NCBI RefSeq assembly: GCF_021278025.1
Contig: NZ_JAIBHJ010000001.1
Coordinates: forward strand, 217,508-281,507
DNA: 64,000 nucleotides
Origin: Motilimonas sp. E26
Lineage (GTDB): Bacteria > Pseudomonadota > Gammaproteobacteria > Enterobacterales > CBDFNC01
Direction of reading: 5' to 3'
Below the pieces are notes generated by a model. It had not been told where the DNA came from, did not search any database, and saw only the letters and a program-made list of their open reading frames with translations. A program made the translations under genes and the position numbers. Position 1 is the stretch's first letter. Each line of letters opens with the position of its first letter. This document shows positions 4,901 through 56,236 of the stretch, one piece after another.

Positions 4901-5785
4901 CTAACATTTAACTAAATATTCTTTTATGGTTTGGGCCACGCCCAGATGGTTTTCCATGTGTACATGGTGGTTGCCTGGTAATTCAACCTTGGTCAGTTGC
5001 GTAAATAAGTGCTGGCGTTCTAATAAATGCGTGCTTATTTCAGCATAACCATCGTTGCCGAGAATACACATTGTCGGGCATTTAATGTCTTTTATTAATT
5101 GCTGCGCTTGTGACTCAGCCAAACGAAAGGGTGACAAATATGTCAATCTGGGATCATGGCGCCAAACATAGCCTTTCGTCACTGACATTGCGCCACGAGT
5201 GGCTAATAACGTTGCATTTTTGGTACTTATCCCTAATGCGCGTTGTTTCGCTTGCACTAATGAACTTAGCAGTCTTGGTTTTGGTAACGAAGAGGCCTGG
5301 CGCGACAAAATAGCCTGACGCAAATGCGCAGTGGTGGATGTCACTGATTGAACCAACGGGCCAGCCCCTTCAATCATAATCAAGTGGCTCACTTTTTCCG
5401 GAAAAGCCGCTGCCACACAGCTCGCCACTAACGCGCCAAGAGAATGCCCAATCAAAATAACGGGCCGTTTGCCTAGAGCGGTGATCACTTGATAAACATC
5501 ATCAACCCAATCAGCAAAGTGGTATGCACTATTTCTGTGCTGTGAGTGACCGTGGCCAGGTAAATCGATGCATACAAAACGAAACTGAGTGGTGAGTTGT
5601 TGCTGCTCAAACGCCTGCAAAAGTGGAACAAATGACGCGGCATTGTCAAGCCAACCATGCAGACATAGCACGACAGGTAACGCTGGCTCACCAATAGCAA
5701 GCGCTGCCAAGGCGCCTTCACGCAATGTAACAAATTGGGTTTCAAGCTTAGGTTGAATCGGAAATAAAACAGCAGTGTCGAGCAT
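4901..5785 (-). CDS. Alpha/beta-hydrolase fold protein
   Basis: Serine hydrolase of unknown substrate, probably an esterase or lipase-like enzyme. The oxyanion-hole region CLHGWLDNAASF is at about residues 41-52, the nucleophile elbow GHSLGA is near 112, and the C-terminal catalytic His is in GNHHVHMEN near 272. There is no signal peptide, so it is likely cytoplasmic. Its ATG overlaps the stop of the small upstream gene (TAATG), which implies translational coupling. The neighbourhood (tsaB, this gene, fadD) suggests a lipid or ester substrate, but that is inference only. Confidence 0.85.
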   Translation of the reverse strand: MLDTAVLFPIQPKLETQFVTLREGALAALAIGEPALPVVLCLHGWLDNAASFVPLLQAFEQQQLTTQFRFVCIDLPGHGHSQHRNSAYHFADWVDDVYQVITALGKRPVILIGHSLGALVASCVAAAFPEKVSHLIMIEGAGPLVQSVTSTTAHLRQAILSRQASSLPKPRLLSSLVQAKQRALGISTKNATLLATRGAMSVTKGYVWRHDPRLTYLSPFRLAESQAQQLIKDIKCPTMCILGNDGYAEISTHLLERQHLFTQLTKVELPGNHHVHMENHLGVAQTIKEYLVKC

Positions 5786-6066
5786 TACGCGTAGAGGTCA
5801 ATACCAAAAGTGCTGGATATTTCTTCTCGCATTTGGGCTTTTTCGATATCTTGATAGGACGCTAATGCCTTTTGGTTTCGCCCATCTGGTTGATCATAAG
5901 CCAGTTTGACGGTTTCTATCTCTTGCTCGTTTAATTGAGTTTGCCGAATGGGGACTGGTGACTTAGCGACTTGCTCTGGAGCAGCAGGCACAGCCGGCTG
6001 CTTGGGCTTTTGATACCCCGATGAAATACTATCAATATTGTTTGAAATTTGATTAATCATCGTCAT
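5785..6066 (-). CDS. Small conserved-looking protein of unknown function
   Basis: 93 aa, not recognised. The N-terminal half is Pro/Ala/Gln-rich and probably disordered. The C-terminal half (TQLNEQEIETVKLAYDQPDG to the end, FGIDLYA) is charged and helical. No signal peptide or membrane segment. Three in-frame starts lie close together: TTG 6069, ATG 6066 and ATG 6060. ATG 6066 is chosen, although the RBS is weak. The one-base stop/start overlap with the hydrolase argues that it is a real gene in an operon. Confidence 0.7.
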   Translation of the reverse strand: MTMINQISNNIDSISSGYQKPKQPAVPAAPEQVAKSPVPIRQTQLNEQEIETVKLAYDQPDGRNQKALASYQDIEKAQMREEISSTFGIDLYA

Positions 6067-49354: not shown

Positions 49355-49597
49355 TTATCAACTCCATTTGTGATGGCTATCTAGCCACATATCAATTTAT
49401 ATAAACGCGGCTAAGGTTATGTATTTTATCACTGAAATCACTTTTTCTAGGCAATAAAAATAGCTAAGGGGATTTTATATAATTTAAAATGAAAAAGAAG
49501 GGAAAGAAGGGAACGGTTGATACCGGCAGATTTCTTAAACGAAAAAACAAATTAGCGATCAACCGCGCCTAAGTAAGACGCGATTTTATTGGAAAAG

Positions 49598-49846
49598 TTA
49601 AGAATAATAAGCTTCAACAGTGCCTTTTAGGGTGATCAAAAGCGGTTGACCACGGCGATCTAGCGCCTTCGGCGAAGGAATTTTAACCCAACCTTCACTG
49701 ATGCAATATTCTTCAACATCAAAACGCTCTTTGCCGTTAAGTCGAATGCCAATATCGTGCTCAAAAATCTCTTCTACATAATTTGGACTACGTGGGTTAC
49801 AAGATAGGCGATCAGGTAAATCTGGTTTCGATAGCGTGTCGTTCAT
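49598..49846 (-). CDS. DUF3297 family protein
   Basis: 82 aa. The family pattern is clear: LPDRLSCNPRSPNYVEEIF, GIRLNGKERFDVEEYCISEGW, DRRGQPLLITLKGTVEAYY. Function unknown. ATG 49846 is preferred, since AGG is eight bases upstream; ATG 49852 adds two residues. Confidence 0.9.
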   Translation of the reverse strand: MNDTLSKPDLPDRLSCNPRSPNYVEEIFEHDIGIRLNGKERFDVEEYCISEGWVKIPSPKALDRRGQPLLITLKGTVEAYYS

Positions 49847-49981
49847 GTTCATGACCTAAAAATATAAAGTGCGTTATTGTAGACAATGTCAGCGTGGCGC
49901 TCAAGCAGATGTCATCGTCAAATAACTGCTACGGTTAACTTAAACTTCAGCCTTAAATTATTTAACCCTTGAGGTTTCAAA

Positions 49982-50005
49982 AATTCCTTGATAAGTTCAA
50001 GGAAT
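49982..50005 (+). promoter_or_regulatory. Hairpin over the trpS leader start
   Basis: ATTCCTTGA (49983-49991) pairs with TCAAGGAAT (49997-50005), loop TAAGT. The 3' arm holds AAGGA and the first two bases of the leader ATG. No other gene is seen in 49853-50003. Confidence 0.6.
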
Positions 50006-50057
50006 GAAAACATTTAATTCACCTACCATTTCCTTTTTCTGGTGGCGCTCTTTTTAG
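50004..50057 (+). CDS. Tandem-Trp leader peptide upstream of trpS
   Basis: 17-codon ORF MKTFNSPTISFFWWRSF with adjacent Trp codons TGG TGG at 50040-50045, stop TAG 50055-50057. It lies 98 bases before trpS and just ahead of competing hairpins, like trpL of the E. coli trp operon. Weak point: the purine-rich AAGGA abuts the ATG with no spacer; a weaker AAG lies at 49993-49995. It is too short for most gene finders. Translation is inferred. Confidence 0.7.
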   Translation: MKTFNSPTISFFWWRSF

Positions 50058-50121
50058 AGCGGCGCGGAATTTTCACATTCTTAAGCTGCTGGTAGGTAGC
50101 TAAGAATGTCAGATCTTTTTT
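50046..50121 (+). promoter_or_regulatory. Putative Trp-responsive transcription attenuator
   Basis: Pause hairpin: CGCTCT (50046-50051) with AGAGCG (50056-50061), TTTT loop, overlapping the leader stop. Terminator-like hairpin: ACATTCTTA..GCT (50075-50087, one bulged A) with AGCTAAGAATGT (50098-50109), then T6 at 50116-50121 after a six-base gap. Competing pairings: AGCGGC (50058-50063) with GCTGCT (50085-50090), and ACCTACCA (50021-50028) with TGGTAGGT (50090-50097). Ribosomes stalled at the Trp codons would break the pause hairpin and could favour the antiterminating pair. Confidence 0.65.
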
Positions 50122-50152
50122 ATCTCCAGTAGCATTTTTTCACTTGGAGATA
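50121..50152 (+). promoter_or_regulatory. Hairpin hiding the trpS ribosome-binding site
   Basis: TATCTCCA (50121-50128) and TGGAGATA (50145-50152) are perfectly complementary (8 bp, 16-base loop). GGAG at 50146-50149 is the trpS RBS, so this structure would lower translation and adds a second control layer. Confidence 0.6.
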
Positions 50153-50155
50153 TTC

Positions 50156-51169
50156 ATGAACATAGCAACTAAACCTGAGATTATTTTAACCGGCGATAGA
50201 GCAACTGGGCCGCTGCATTTAGGCCATTATGTTGGCTCTCTTCAACAGAGAGTATTACTGCAGTCGCAACACCAACAAACAATACTGGTGGCCGACATGC
50301 AAGGCCTAACTGATAACGCGCATAATCCCGCGAAGGTATCATCCAATATCCTTAATGTGGTTGCTGACTACTTAGCGGTTGGCATCGACCCAGACCAAAC
50401 CACCATTTGTCTACAATCCCAATTACCTGCCCTTGCCGAGCTAACCATGTACTACAGTAATTTGGTGTCTATTGCTCGCCTAGAGAGAAACCCCACTGTC
50501 AAAACAGAAATTCAAAGTAAAGGCTTTGACCGTTCAATCCCCGCCGGTTTTTTAACTTACCCAATTTCTCAAGCGGCTGATATCACTGCATTTAACGCAA
50601 CTCTGATACCAGTCGGCGACGATCAACTTCCGATGATCGAACAAACTAACGAAATAGTAAGAAAAATTAATCACCTAGCAAACAAAAAAGTCCTGACAGA
50701 ATGTCGACCACTGCTCAGTAACGCGCCGAGATTACCCAGCACAGATGGTAAAAATAAAATGTCTAAAACCATGGGCAATACTATTAACCTTGGCGCGTCT
50801 GAACAAGAAATCAGTGCCGCGGTAAAAGCCATGTATACAGATCCAAATCACCTAAGGGTACAAGACCCAGGTCAAGTTGAAGGCAATGTCGTGTTTACTT
50901 ACTTGGATGCTTTCCATCAGGATAAAAACACTGTTGAACAGCTTAAAAGCCAATATCGCCATGGTGGATTGGGTGATGGCACAACAAAAAAGATATTAGA
51001 AGAATGCCTACAAGAGCTGCTTCGTCCAATACGCCATAAGCGGGCAGAATATTTAAACGATAAGGCGCAATTATTGGCCATTTTAAAACGTGGCAGTCAA
51101 ACCTCAAAAGAGCAGACCGAGCAAACACTGCTTGATGTTAAGGCGGTATTTGGACTAAATATTTTTTGA
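50156..51169 (+). CDS. trpS: Tryptophanyl-tRNA synthetase, auxiliary (Firmicute-like) type
   Basis: 337 aa from ATG 50156 (GGAG six bases upstream; TTG 50144 rejected). Class I synthetase with HLGH at 21-24 and KMSKT at 201-205. Patterns such as ILTGDRATGPLHLGHYVGSL, NPTVKTEIQSKGF, QAADITAFNATLIPVGDDQLP and YTDPNHLRVQDPGQVEG match the ~340-aa TrpRS of streptococci and clostridia rather than the usual proteobacterial enzyme. The position equivalent to His43 of Bacillus TrpRS, by hand alignment, is Gln49. A second, housekeeping trpS is expected elsewhere. Preceded by a Trp-leader attenuator. Confidence 0.93.
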   Translation: MNIATKPEIILTGDRATGPLHLGHYVGSLQQRVLLQSQHQQTILVADMQGLTDNAHNPAKVSSNILNVVADYLAVGIDPDQTTICLQSQLPALAELTMYYSNLVSIARLERNPTVKTEIQSKGFDRSIPAGFLTYPISQAADITAFNATLIPVGDDQLPMIEQTNEIVRKINHLANKKVLTECRPLLSNAPRLPSTDGKNKMSKTMGNTINLGASEQEISAAVKAMYTDPNHLRVQDPGQVEGNVVFTYLDAFHQDKNTVEQLKSQYRHGGLGDGTTKKILEECLQELLRPIRHKRAEYLNDKAQLLAILKRGSQTSKEQTEQTLLDVKAVFGLNIF

Positions 51170-51197
51170 ACTAAGGGCCGCCATCCAACCTTAGGCT

Positions 51198-51226
51198 GTT
51201 GCACCACAAACTACTGGTGGTGCAAC
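51198..51226 (+). terminator. Hairpin after trpS
   Basis: GTTGCACCAC (51198-51207) pairs with GTGGTGCAAC (51217-51226). There is no clear T-run, so it is a weak or Rho-assisted terminator candidate. The remainder of 51170-51390 shows no gene. Confidence 0.5.
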
Positions 51227-51390
51227 TCTATCTAGCCACTTTACTTAGTGGCATAGTGAAAGACGCGAAAAGGCGCTAACACACTAGAAATGACCAACAA
51301 AGATCAACAGGCCGTAGGAAGCTGTTAATTATCAGTACAGGATCGCCACGCTAGAATAACCTTGCAATCGCCATACTGCTTAGCTGTAGC

Positions 51391-53388
51391 TTAGCCCAGG
51401 GCTAGCAACTGCTGCTGCAAACTTGCTACTTCGTCGCGCATTGCCGCCGCTTGTTCAAATTCCAAGTTTTTGGCATGTTCAAACATCTTGCTTTCACATT
51501 CAGCGATTTGTTTTAGCAAGGTTTGCGGGTCAACTATCTTATACTCACCCTTCTTCTCTGCGACTTTATTGAGTTTACTATTCCCTGTGCCCATCGCCAT
51601 AATATCCAAAATGGCTTTATTCACCCCTTTTGGTGTAATGCCATTATCAAGGTTGAATTGATGCTGAACTTTGCGGCGACGCTCAGTTTCATCAATGGCC
51701 TTACGCATTGATTTAGTCATACTGTCTGCGTATAAAATGGCTTTACCTTTAACGTTTCGAGCCGCGCGACCAATGGTTTGGATTAACGAACGTTCCGAGC
51801 GTAAAAAACCCTCTTTATCAGCATCTAGGATCGCCACTAACGATACCTCAGGCATATCTAAACCTTCACGCAGTAAGTTAATGCCGACAATCACATCAAA
51901 CACCCCCAAACGTAAATCACGAATAATCTCCACCCGCTCAACGGTGTCGATATCAGAGTGTAAATAACGCACTTTTACGCCATGGTCGGCTAAGTATTCG
52001 GATAAATCTTCCGCCATCTTTTTAGTCAAAGTGGTGGCGAGCACGCGCTCTTTTTGCGCAACCCGTACACGAATTTCCGACAATAGATCATCCACTTGAG
52101 TCGCCACTGGCCGGACTTCAATTTCAGGATCAAGTAAACCGGTTGGGCGAATTATCTGCTCGGCAAACTCGCCATTGGTTTGCGCTAACTCATAATTGCC
52201 CGGAGTCGCTGACACATATAAGGTTTGCGGCGCGATGCGTTCAAACTCATCAAACTTTAATGGTCGGTTATCCAGCGCAGAGGGTAAACGAAAGCCATAT
52301 TCAACAAGGGTTTCTTTACGAGATCGGTCACCTTTATACATCGCGCCAATTTGCGGCACCGTGACATGACTTTCATCAATGATCATCAAGCCATCGGCAG
52401 GTAAATAATCAATCAATGTCGGCGGCGCATCACCTGGCGAGCGGCCAGATAAATAACGGGAGTAGTTTTCTATACCAGAGCAGTAACCCAACTCTTGCAT
52501 CATCTCAATATCGTATTGCACCCGCTGGGTAATACGCTGCTCTTCAATTAACTTGTTATTGTCGAGTAACTGCTTTTTACGCTCACCCAGCTCAACTTTA
52601 ATATTCTCAATCGCATCTAATATAGTTTGCCGTGGCGTCACATAGTGAGTTTTAGGATAAACCGTGATCCGAGGTACATCTGTTAAACTCTGGCCCGTTA
52701 GCGGATCGAACAAGCTTAGGCGCTCAACCTCGCCATCAAACAACTCAATACGCACCGCATGTTTATCCGATTCAGCCGGAAAAACATCTATCACTTCGCC
52801 ACGCACGCGAAAGGTACCACGACTAAACGCCATATCATTGCGGGTATATTGAATTTCCGCCAAGCGACGTAAAATATCACGCTGATCAATTATATCACCC
52901 GTGGTTAAGTGCAACATCATCGACAAGTAGGATTGCGGATCACCAAGGCCATAGATGGCGGAGACAGACGCCACGATGATGACATCACGGCGCTCCATTA
53001 GCGCCTTAGTCGCCGAGAGCCGCATCTGTTCAATGTGATCATTGACTGATGCATCTTTATCAATAAAAGTATCAGTGCTGGGAACATACGCTTCAGGTTG
53101 GTAATAATCGTAATAAGAAACAAAATACTCGACAGCATTGTTCGGAAAAAACTCTTTCATTTCACCATAAAGCTGCGCTGCCAAGGTCTTGTTTGGCGCC
53201 ATAACTATAGTTGGCCGGTCTAACGTTTTGATCAAATTCGCCACCGTGAACGTTTTACCCGAGCCCGTGACCCCAAGTAGCACTTGATGCGCTAAACCGT
53301 CATTAAAACCTTCAACTAAAGTGCTGATGGCCTCTGGTTGATCACCACTGGGTTTAAATGCAGATTCGAGTTGAAATGATTTTTTCAC
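51391..53388 (-). CDS. uvrB: Excinuclease ABC subunit B
   Basis: Damage-verification helicase of nucleotide excision repair. 665 aa (E. coli 673). Walker A GVTGSGKT at 39-46, beta-hairpin [12 protein letters not shown] (~90-105), DESH box, helicase motif QTIGRAARN, and the C-terminal UVR domain ([11 protein letters not shown]) that binds UvrC. GTG start with AAAGGAG eight bases upstream. No LexA box was recognised. Confidence 0.98.
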
Positions 53389-55903: not shown

Positions 55904-55979
55904 TCCTCCTTAGCTCAGCTGGTAGAGCGACGGACTGTTAATCCGCAGGTCGCTGGTTCAATCCCAGCAGGAGGAGCCA
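55904..55979 (+). tRNA. tRNA-Asn (GTT), copy 1
   Basis: 76 bases with encoded CCA. Acceptor TCCTCCT pairs with AGGAGGA, D-arm AGCTCAGCTGGTAGAGC, anticodon loop CTGTTAA with GTT, T-arm GCTGGTTCAATCCCAGC. Confidence 0.98.
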
Positions 55980-56006
55980 CACAACAAACAAATATTAAAG
56001 AATCAT

Positions 56007-56082
56007 TCCTCCTTAGCTCAGCTGGTAGAGCGACGGACTGTTAATCCGCAGGTCGCTGGTTCAATCCCAGCAGGAGGAGCCA
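56007..56082 (+). tRNA. tRNA-Asn (GTT), copy 2
   Basis: Identical 76-base sequence to copy 1, after a 27-base spacer. Same transcript likely. Confidence 0.98.
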
Positions 56083-56160
56083 AATTCTGGTTGAGGCAAG
56101 AAGCTTGAACCTCAAGTGCAGTGCACTTAGTAGTCAATAAGATTACAAAGTAAAAATTGT

Positions 56161-56236
56161 TCCTCCTTAGCTCAGCTGGTAGAGCGACGGACTGTTAATC
56201 CGCAGGTCGCTGGTTCAATCCCAGCAGGAGGAGCCA
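56161..56236 (+). tRNA. tRNA-Asn (GTT), copy 3
   Basis: Identical to copies 1 and 2; spacer of 78 bases. No terminator with a clear T-run follows. Confidence 0.98.

Follow-up and report, generated by a model that had tools for sequence, protein, structure and literature searches.

A conserved, probably leaderless Trp-Trp leader and five competing RNA helices upstream of an auxiliary tryptophanyl-tRNA synthetase gene in Motilimonas sp. E26

Introduction

Does the transcript ahead of a second tryptophanyl-tRNA synthetase (TrpRS) gene sense the supply of charged Trp-tRNA, and is it the transcription or the translation of that gene that would respond? The question is raised by a locus in the 64,000-nt stretch of Motilimonas sp. 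E26 DNA studied here (the window, to whose whole length all coordinates refer), in which a short open reading frame (ORF) with two adjacent Trp codons precedes an auxiliary trpS gene. A sequence-only reading had interpreted this arrangement as a leader peptide with an attenuator that switches trpS on when charged Trp-tRNA is low. Comparison with related loci revealed a conserved leader and five covarying, mutually exclusive RNA helices, among which the helix of segments 2 and 3 covaries most weakly. With a probability of roughly 0.68, the locus is regarded here as a ribosome-sensing leader that raises expression of the spare TrpRS when Trp-tRNA charging is low; a block by a Trp-mimicking antibiotic would probably likewise allow translation of the spare enzyme.

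Results

Leader ORF and target gene

50004-50057, plus strand: leader ORF of 17 codons, encoding MKTFNSPTISFFWWRSF followed by the stop codon, probably leaderless, Trp codons at 50040-50045
50156-51169, plus strand: auxiliary tryptophanyl-tRNA synthetase gene, TrpRS-II-like, 337 amino acids (assigned by TIGR00233 and relatives in PDB)

The TGG TGG pair and the Trp-Trp leader peptide described earlier are present, and they are shared widely: an in-frame Trp-Trp leader was found at 76 of the 80 best among 580 confirmed related trpS loci, the peptide often ending in WWRS(x) and the stop codon lying approximately 98-193 nt upstream of the matched part of trpS. According to the record titles, the hosts include Vibrio, Photobacterium, Alteromonas, Colwellia, Moritella, Shewanella, Marinomonas, Klebsiella and Lelliottia as well as Desulfoluna, a member of another phylum. 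In Desulfogranum (L061), Trp-Arg-Arg-Ser (TGG CGG) replaces Trp-Trp-Arg-Ser with the RNA structure retained, and this leader was kept in the alignment A1 and in the set of 78 leaders used below; within A1, L010 duplicates L009 and L065 duplicates L041. Three of the 80 loci (L011, L074 and L076, the last with a TGGTGG that is not part of a leader) have no Trp-Trp leader and were left out of the counts. In the Vibrio copy seen in L011 and L155 (G671), which are probably one genome, the leader is gone and other DNA lies directly against the coding region, perhaps as an insertion; the copy L074, likewise devoid of the leader, resides on the Enterovibrio plasmid pMJ1. The L061 locus also holds a thiamine pyrophosphate (TPP) riboswitch at 5742-5843.

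The identity of the target gene as an auxiliary trpS was borne out: its product matched TIGR00233 (trpS) with 234.8 bits against a cut-off of 176.75, and its closest solved structures over the whole enzyme are 1yi8 and 2a4m (E approximately 1e-108), the latter named tryptophanyl-tRNA synthetase II and both of which we take to be D. radiodurans TrpRS II. The genome contains three members of PF00579, and another trpS-like gene (on C78, 334 amino acids) is read as the housekeeping TrpRS; the two enzymes share 91 identical among 322 aligned residues. On these grounds the window enzyme is assigned as auxiliary. The nearest named relative among those retrieved was Motilimonas cestriensis, with a trpS that is 91% identical.

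Six segments and five competing helices

The conserved RNA consists of six segments that form five competing helices, denoted by their partners as 1:2, 2:3, 3:4, 3:5 and 5:6.

50042-50051, plus strand: segment 1, pairing with segment 2 (94.6% of the cells of this helix paired in 76 leaders)
50056-50070, plus strand: segment 2 (AGAGCGGCGCGGAAT), partner of segment 1 or 3
50077-50092, plus strand: segment 3 (ATTCTTAAGCTGCTGG), partner of segments 2, 4 and 5
50094-50109, plus strand: segment 4 (AGGTAGCTAAGAATGT), which closes the hairpin 50075-50109 (terminator-like) and contributes its initial part, 50094-50099, to 3:5 as well
50116-50121, plus strand: T6 run, apart from the 3:4 hairpin and partly within segment 5
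50120-50133, plus strand: segment 5 (TTATCTCCAGTAGC), anti-Shine-Dalgarno strand, pairing with segment 6 or with segment 3 and the start of segment 4
50142-50152, plus strand: segment 6, holding the trpS Shine-Dalgarno sequence GGAG (50146-50149), pairing with segment 5

The RNA 49982-50160 folds with −56.1 kcal/mol (z = −5.6), a stability reached by 0 of 200 shuffles. The hairpins 50046-50061, 50075-50109 and 50121-50152, the T6 run and the pairing of 50058-50063 with 50085-50090 (2:3) all occur where they had been placed, and the hairpin hiding the trpS ribosome-binding site is conserved as 5:6. Of the earlier set of pairings, 1:2, 2:3, 3:4 and this hairpin are supported; the set missed the 3:5 helix, which joins 50085-50092 and 50094-50099 with 50120-50133 in the window. 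A further alternative pairing proposed at that time, 50021-50028 with 50090-50097, is a perfect 8-bp complement in the window, but the longest complement is shuffle-like over 76 leaders, and the pairing was dismissed as chance.

The predicted conservation of leader and helices with compensatory changes among orthologues was found in alignment A1, which comprises 76 distinct leaders, each taken from 3 nt upstream of the Trp codons up to the start of trpS. Unguided RNAalifold returned 3:5 as a helix of ten pairs and a 1:2 contact of four (its register two columns off), with two-sided changes at 7 of 14 pairs; 3:4 and 5:6, both exclusive with 3:5, do not appear in this consensus. In the OFF structure (1:2, 3:4, 5:6), 89.3% of cells are paired and 15 of 23 pairs show two-sided changes (slid controls 27.8-53.2% paired); the corresponding values are 90.6% and 13 of 22 pairs for 1:2 with 3:5 (slid 28.2-61.8%), and 88.7% and 8 of 13 pairs, matched by 9 of 500 shuffles, for 2:3 combined with a pairing of segment 5 to a part of segment 4 termed 4' (slid 30.5-57.0%). 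Among the single helices, the 8-bp core of 3:5 is 91.3% paired with two-sided changes at 6 of its 8 pairs, 5:6 has such changes at 7 of 8 pairs and keeps at least 5 of the 8 in 70 of 76 leaders, and of the six core pairs of 2:3, five are standard throughout the 76 leaders and one in 38.

Because shuffle counts ignore relatedness, a swap test was added, in which partner segments were exchanged among 32 representatives of less than 80% identity. Native partners won for every helix: z was between −7.5 and −8.3 for 1:2, 3:4, 3:5 and 5:6 (segment 3 giving −8.3 with segment 4 and −7.7 with segment 5) and −3.1 for 2:3, the least variable helix and the one with the weakest swap signal; nine unproposed segment pairs of equal relatedness gave −1.8 to 1.6. 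Finer segments concurred (six controls, z −1.3 to 2.2). A first definition of 4:5 (columns 92-118) had no signal (z −1.6); 4' as redefined (columns 88-101) gave z −6.3 for 4':5, with a boundary chosen after the alignment and the RNAalifold result had been seen.

Promoter and start of the transcript

49969-49974, plus strand: predicted −35 element TTGAGG, 17 nt before the −10 element (from positional bases over 78 leaders)
49989-49997, plus strand: extended −10 element TG-A-TAAGTT, predicted from motif spacing and separated from the leader ATG by 6 nt

Upstream of the leader ATG (50004), TTGAGG is followed at 17 nt by TAAGTT (49992-49997); counted back from the ATG, the most frequent bases at positions −35 to −32 in the 78 leaders are T (0.88), T (0.71), G (0.62) and A (0.56). 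The extended −10 motif TGNTANNNT precedes the leader ATG in 59 of the 78 leaders, with a gap of 6 nt in 48 and 7 nt in 11, and in 20 of 32 representatives. Anywhere 30-75 nt before the Trp codons the motif occurs in 64 leaders, 59 of which have an ATG 6-7 nt downstream, and every one of these ATGs is in the reading frame of the Trp codons. A count of the arrangement over 8,215 ATGs of the loci gave 51 cases with gap 6, of which 48 are leaders, and 18 with gap 7, of which 11 are leaders; for both gaps together, 10 of approximately 8,150 other ATGs carry it (0.12%), and it was found at none of the trpS starts of the same loci. A transcription start approximately 6-7 nt after the −10 element is usual. 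As the motif lies at just this distance before the ATG, the transcript would begin at the leader AUG: the A of the ATG is the predicted start, and the leader ORF is probably leaderless. The poor ribosome-binding site of the leader, once listed as a weak point, is probably explained in this way. In S. lividans, the mean distance from −10 to start is given as 6.3 nt in the portion of PMC8079986 consulted.

Several observations weigh against a leaderless start. A generic consensus promoter scan flagged no promoter here, only 3 of the 6 bases of the −10 element agree with TATAAT, and the strict motif is missing from 19 of the 78 leaders. An inverted repeat at 49983-50005, which shares positions with the predicted promoter, was also considered and was not supported; by eye, L004, the nearest relative, does not have it.

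Energies and folding of the proposed switch

Based on the helices and the predicted start, the following course of events is proposed. Transcription would start on the leader ATG or immediately beside it; to judge from the promoter position, ribosomes would load on the bare 5' end. With ample charged Trp-tRNA, the ribosome at the stop codon would cover segment 2, so that segment 3 pairs with 4 and segment 5 hides the Shine-Dalgarno sequence in segment 6 (OFF). Stalling at the pair of Trp codons would instead place the ribosome over segment 1; segment 2 would then pair with 3 and exclude 4, the free stretch after segment 3 (GGnAG) would offer a foothold for segment 5, which captures segment 3, and the resulting 3:5 helix would hold segment 5 away from the Shine-Dalgarno sequence (ON).

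The median helix energies are −15.2 (1:2), −11.2 (2:3), −14.4 (3:4), −16.6 (3:5) and −10.2 kcal/mol (5:6). The 3:5 helix is more stable than 5:6 in 72 and than 3:4 in 52 of 76 leaders, and 3:4 together with 5:6 exceeds 3:5 in 75; from this balance, the first partner of segment 3 should decide the outcome, a pattern that, according to the model energies, would be as needed for a kinetic switch. If the ribosome edge is taken to lie 12 nt beyond the first nucleotide of the codon in the A site, an assumed footprint, a stall at the Trp codons masks segment 1 and a ribosome at the stop masks much of segment 2. The mean accessibility of the Shine-Dalgarno sequence over 76 leaders was 0.26 with 2:3 fixed versus 0.20 with 3:4 fixed, with changes of more than 0.1 upward in 14 leaders and downward in none (Wilcoxon p 1.5e-6); among the 32 representatives, nine went up and none down (p 7e-4).

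A home-made and crude stepwise folding model gave, in the window, 3:5 (14 bp, one bulge) under stalling and 3:4 with 5:6 for a ribosome at the stop or no ribosome. Over the 76 leaders it formed 2:3 in 41 (stall at the first Trp codon) or 47 (second) versus 10 without ribosome and 8 at the stop. As proof of a uniform opening of the Shine-Dalgarno sequence the model fails: it yields 2:3 under stall, and the release seen on stalling in the window, where the covarying 3:5 helix forms, is inconsistent across the leaders. Equilibrium folding with a masked ribosome was likewise discarded as a demonstration of a general switch, since no consistent one appeared.

Observations that weigh against the ribosome-sensing switch

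The observations gathered in this paragraph speak against the switch proposed above. In the window itself, accessibility of the Shine-Dalgarno sequence barely moves (0.17 with 2:3 fixed versus 0.15 with 3:4 fixed), because 5:6 survives 2:3; in the ON state of the stepwise model only 4 of 9 bases of the Shine-Dalgarno region are unpaired, and the near-identical L004 stays closed under stall. Across the 76 leaders of this model, stalling opens the Shine-Dalgarno sequence in 22 and closes it in 19 relative to the stop, opens 21 and closes 24 relative to no ribosome, and 3:5 forms in 27 without ribosome, in 22 or 21 under stall and in 15 at the stop. In the equilibrium calculation (first Trp codon versus stop), 16 leaders become more open and 11 less. 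As regards covariation, the shuffle-based counts take no account of phylogeny, and for further pair types 206 of 500 shuffles equal the 2:3 structure and 88 the 3:5 structure. In three Photobacterium leaders (L070, L072, L075), segment 5 seems, by eye, to pair with segment 4 (9-11 bp) and not with 3; this arrangement appears to be a different topology with the same outcome. We infer stalling, folding order, the direction of the response and translation as the main output, the direction no more firmly than this since the folding models are inconsistent across leaders.

Termination or translation as the output

An unlikely alternative, although the strongest of those considered, is classical transcription attenuation only, with 3:4 as intrinsic terminator, 2:3 as antiterminator and the Shine-Dalgarno hairpin as secondary. 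Both helices are supported by the swap test and the pair counts, and the stepwise model forms 3:4 in 53 of 76 leaders with the ribosome at the stop, in 40 without ribosome and in 34 or 30 under stall. A good U-rich tail (own score of at least 4.0) follows in 20 of 76 leaders, among them eight of Vibrio and two of Klebsiella, and by eye L149-L151 and L159 combine a GC-rich 3:4 hairpin with five T. However, the remaining 56 leaders are without a good U-tail, the window scores 2.5, and the scan of 49500-51500 detected no terminator-like site; the covariation of 5:6 and 3:5 would be left unexplained; and the classical form of a terminator can be seen in the genome's own trp operon. In that operon (L084, minus strand), a separate leader MHNLTHSSLIWWWHNPE is followed, by eye, by a GC-rich hairpin and six T before trpE (AGCCCGC..GCGGGCTTTTTT).

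The classical terminator of the sequence-only reading is not supported as stated; what stood of its switch responding to low charged Trp-tRNA is the architecture of leader peptide, 1:2, 2:3, 3:4, hidden ribosome-binding site and auxiliary trpS. Since 5:6 and its competitor 3:5 are more widely kept, no terminator site was detected in the window and U-tails are uncommon, Shine-Dalgarno control is taken as the conserved output, and translation control is the likelier one compared with termination. The 3:4 hairpin probably also terminates transcription in some lineages. Diverged leaders with ends such as WWCCS were seen in the genus g303 (L149-L151, L159-L161, L163, L164), and the GC-rich 3:4 hairpins and T runs noted by eye in several of them suggest dual control.

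According to a second and distinctly improbable explanation, leader translation is incidental and an RNA-binding protein, or TrpRS itself, governs the hairpins. In its favour, the trpS-side helices are stable, and in E. coli the product of thrS is known to regulate its own gene. Against it stand the conservation of in-frame Trp-Trp codons, ORF and promoter-ATG spacing and the coverage of segment 1 at a Trp stall, and of much of segment 2 at the stop, by the assumed ribosome footprint. That chance hairpins happen to adjoin a chance short ORF has a negligible probability, common as both are and real as the chance pairing of 50021-50028 with 50090-50097 is, and is already contradicted by the 76 of 80 relatives, by covariation with negative controls and by the fold z of −5.6.

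Distribution across genomes

A covariance model of the leaders (R1) identified one site in the genome itself; in the large samples, for which the filters applied lose weak matches, it identified 36 in 394 genomes of the order, 35 directly before trpS and one (G647) ending at a contig edge; the TrpRS protein was detected in 65 of these 394 genomes at E of at most 1e-70. In 369 genomes of the class, R1 gave two matches, the window's own and the weak match L089, which was rejected (no trpS; the neighbouring frames resemble nadA and nadB by eye). Diverged leaders are missed by R1: 16 of 30 protein-positive, R1-negative genomes were read, and 10 contain a Trp-Trp leader; the other six of the 16 (G649, G671, G550 with one Trp at the site, and G415, G527 and G728 with 41-54% protein identity) have none. 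The R1-positive control genomes L165 and L166 both contain it.

The auxiliary enzyme and indolmycin

At the alignment position that we take to be H43 of B. stearothermophilus TrpRS, Gln is present in 81 of 81 auxiliary enzymes, with His in the enzyme from C78; the second contact position, presumably Q9, is occupied by Arg in all 81. In the part of PMC4899734 consulted, H43 contacts indolmycin and Asn at this position leads to indolmycin resistance. A relative of the window enzyme in P. luteoviolacea HI1 (70% identical) is neighboured by genes for a methyltransferase, an aminotransferase and a LuxR regulator, and no Trp-Trp leader was found for it in the leader reading of related loci. The HI1 locus resembles, as far as its gene content tells, the indolmycin cluster of other P. 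luteoviolacea strains, which contains a Trp-tRNA ligase (PMC5069768, in the excerpt consulted). From the Gln-for-His exchange and this neighbourhood, it is a reasonable inference that the auxiliary TrpRS may tolerate an indolmycin-like Trp mimic.

Discussion

Relation to known systems

No Rfam family scored above threshold at the leader in the window or in 20 relative loci: RF00513 (Trp_leader) reached 18.6 bits versus a gathering score of 41 in the window and was absent at gathering from the 20 loci. The likeness to the E. coli trp leader lies in Trp-Trp-Arg near the peptide end, as in E. coli TrpL, and in the logic of 1:2, 2:3 and 3:4; the leader described here differs in having no strong terminator, two extra segments and probably a leaderless start. 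In ermC and in rtpLA of B. subtilis, both translational attenuators, stalling of the ribosome on the leader exposes a Shine-Dalgarno sequence that is otherwise hidden, and rtpL senses Trp-tRNA; the present leader would share this release and this sensing, and differs by an extra switching step (segment 3 with 2, 4 or 5) and by its synthetase target.

Among Streptomyces, ribosome-mediated attenuation of the auxiliary trpRS1 has reportedly been studied in S. coelicolor. An attenuator was predicted upstream of S. avermitilis trpS2 (PMC1262725, consulted in part), and in the consulted text of PMC8079986 the trpS and trpE leader ORFs of Streptomyces are reported as leaderless, the trpS leader trpL2 of S. 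lividans being leaderless and without a U-rich stretch. These systems have in common with ours a Trp-codon leader before trpS; they belong to other bacteria, trpL2 has one Trp instead of two adjacent Trp codons, and neither a conserved hairpin over the Shine-Dalgarno sequence nor an anti-sequestering 3:5 helix with covariation is described in the consulted parts. The trpL of Sinorhizobium meliloti is likewise a leaderless small ORF of a Trp attenuator, yet acts on trpE(G) via a transcription terminator (PMC7298713, consulted in part). TrpRS II, to which the best solved relatives 1yi8 and 2a4m belong, is described in the consulted part of PMC9437257 as induced on radiation damage and as nitrating Trp together with NOS, a difference to be read with the limit that the comparison concerns the enzyme only.

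A report of a Trp leader for a gammaproteobacterial trpS was not recognised among the matches listed by a search that left most subscription journals outside, and a word search of the main texts of PMC2965389, PMC2659441 and PMC4833913, as far as these were consulted, found no trpS. The leader would work like a Trp attenuator, one that is probably leaderless, has six segments and would act mainly on translation. Elsewhere in the window, a histidine operon leader (RF00514, 9266-9395, 64.9 bits, above the gathering score) represents an ordinary attenuator, and three consecutive tRNA genes with equal scores are located at 55904-56233.

A tentative extension and its meaning

Going further, the leaderless Trp-sensing leader and a Trp-mimic-tolerant TrpRS might travel as a unit among marine and enteric Gammaproteobacteria and Thermodesulfobacteriota, a mobile cassette that would sense inhibition of the housekeeping TrpRS and have its translation switched on by strand exchange (segment 3 passing from 2 to 5 past 4). 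This proposal is a tentative one that we would not presume correct; joint transfer of leader and TrpRS is suggested by the host range. To judge from the neighbours of the HI1 locus, Trp-mimic antibiotics are a possible common selective pressure. If true, indolmycin-like antibiotics in the sea would be countered by an inducible response that is widespread, and the cassette could serve directly as a biosensor of these compounds.

The ribosome-sensing leader would extend Trp-codon-leader attenuation of synthetase genes to many Gammaproteobacteria. Its design would be uncommon in that the sensor ORF is probably leaderless and access to the ribosome-binding site would be set by a single RNA strand for which three partners compete. 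It offers a test of toehold-like strand exchange in natural attenuators and of how one leader could give termination in some lineages and a translational output in others.

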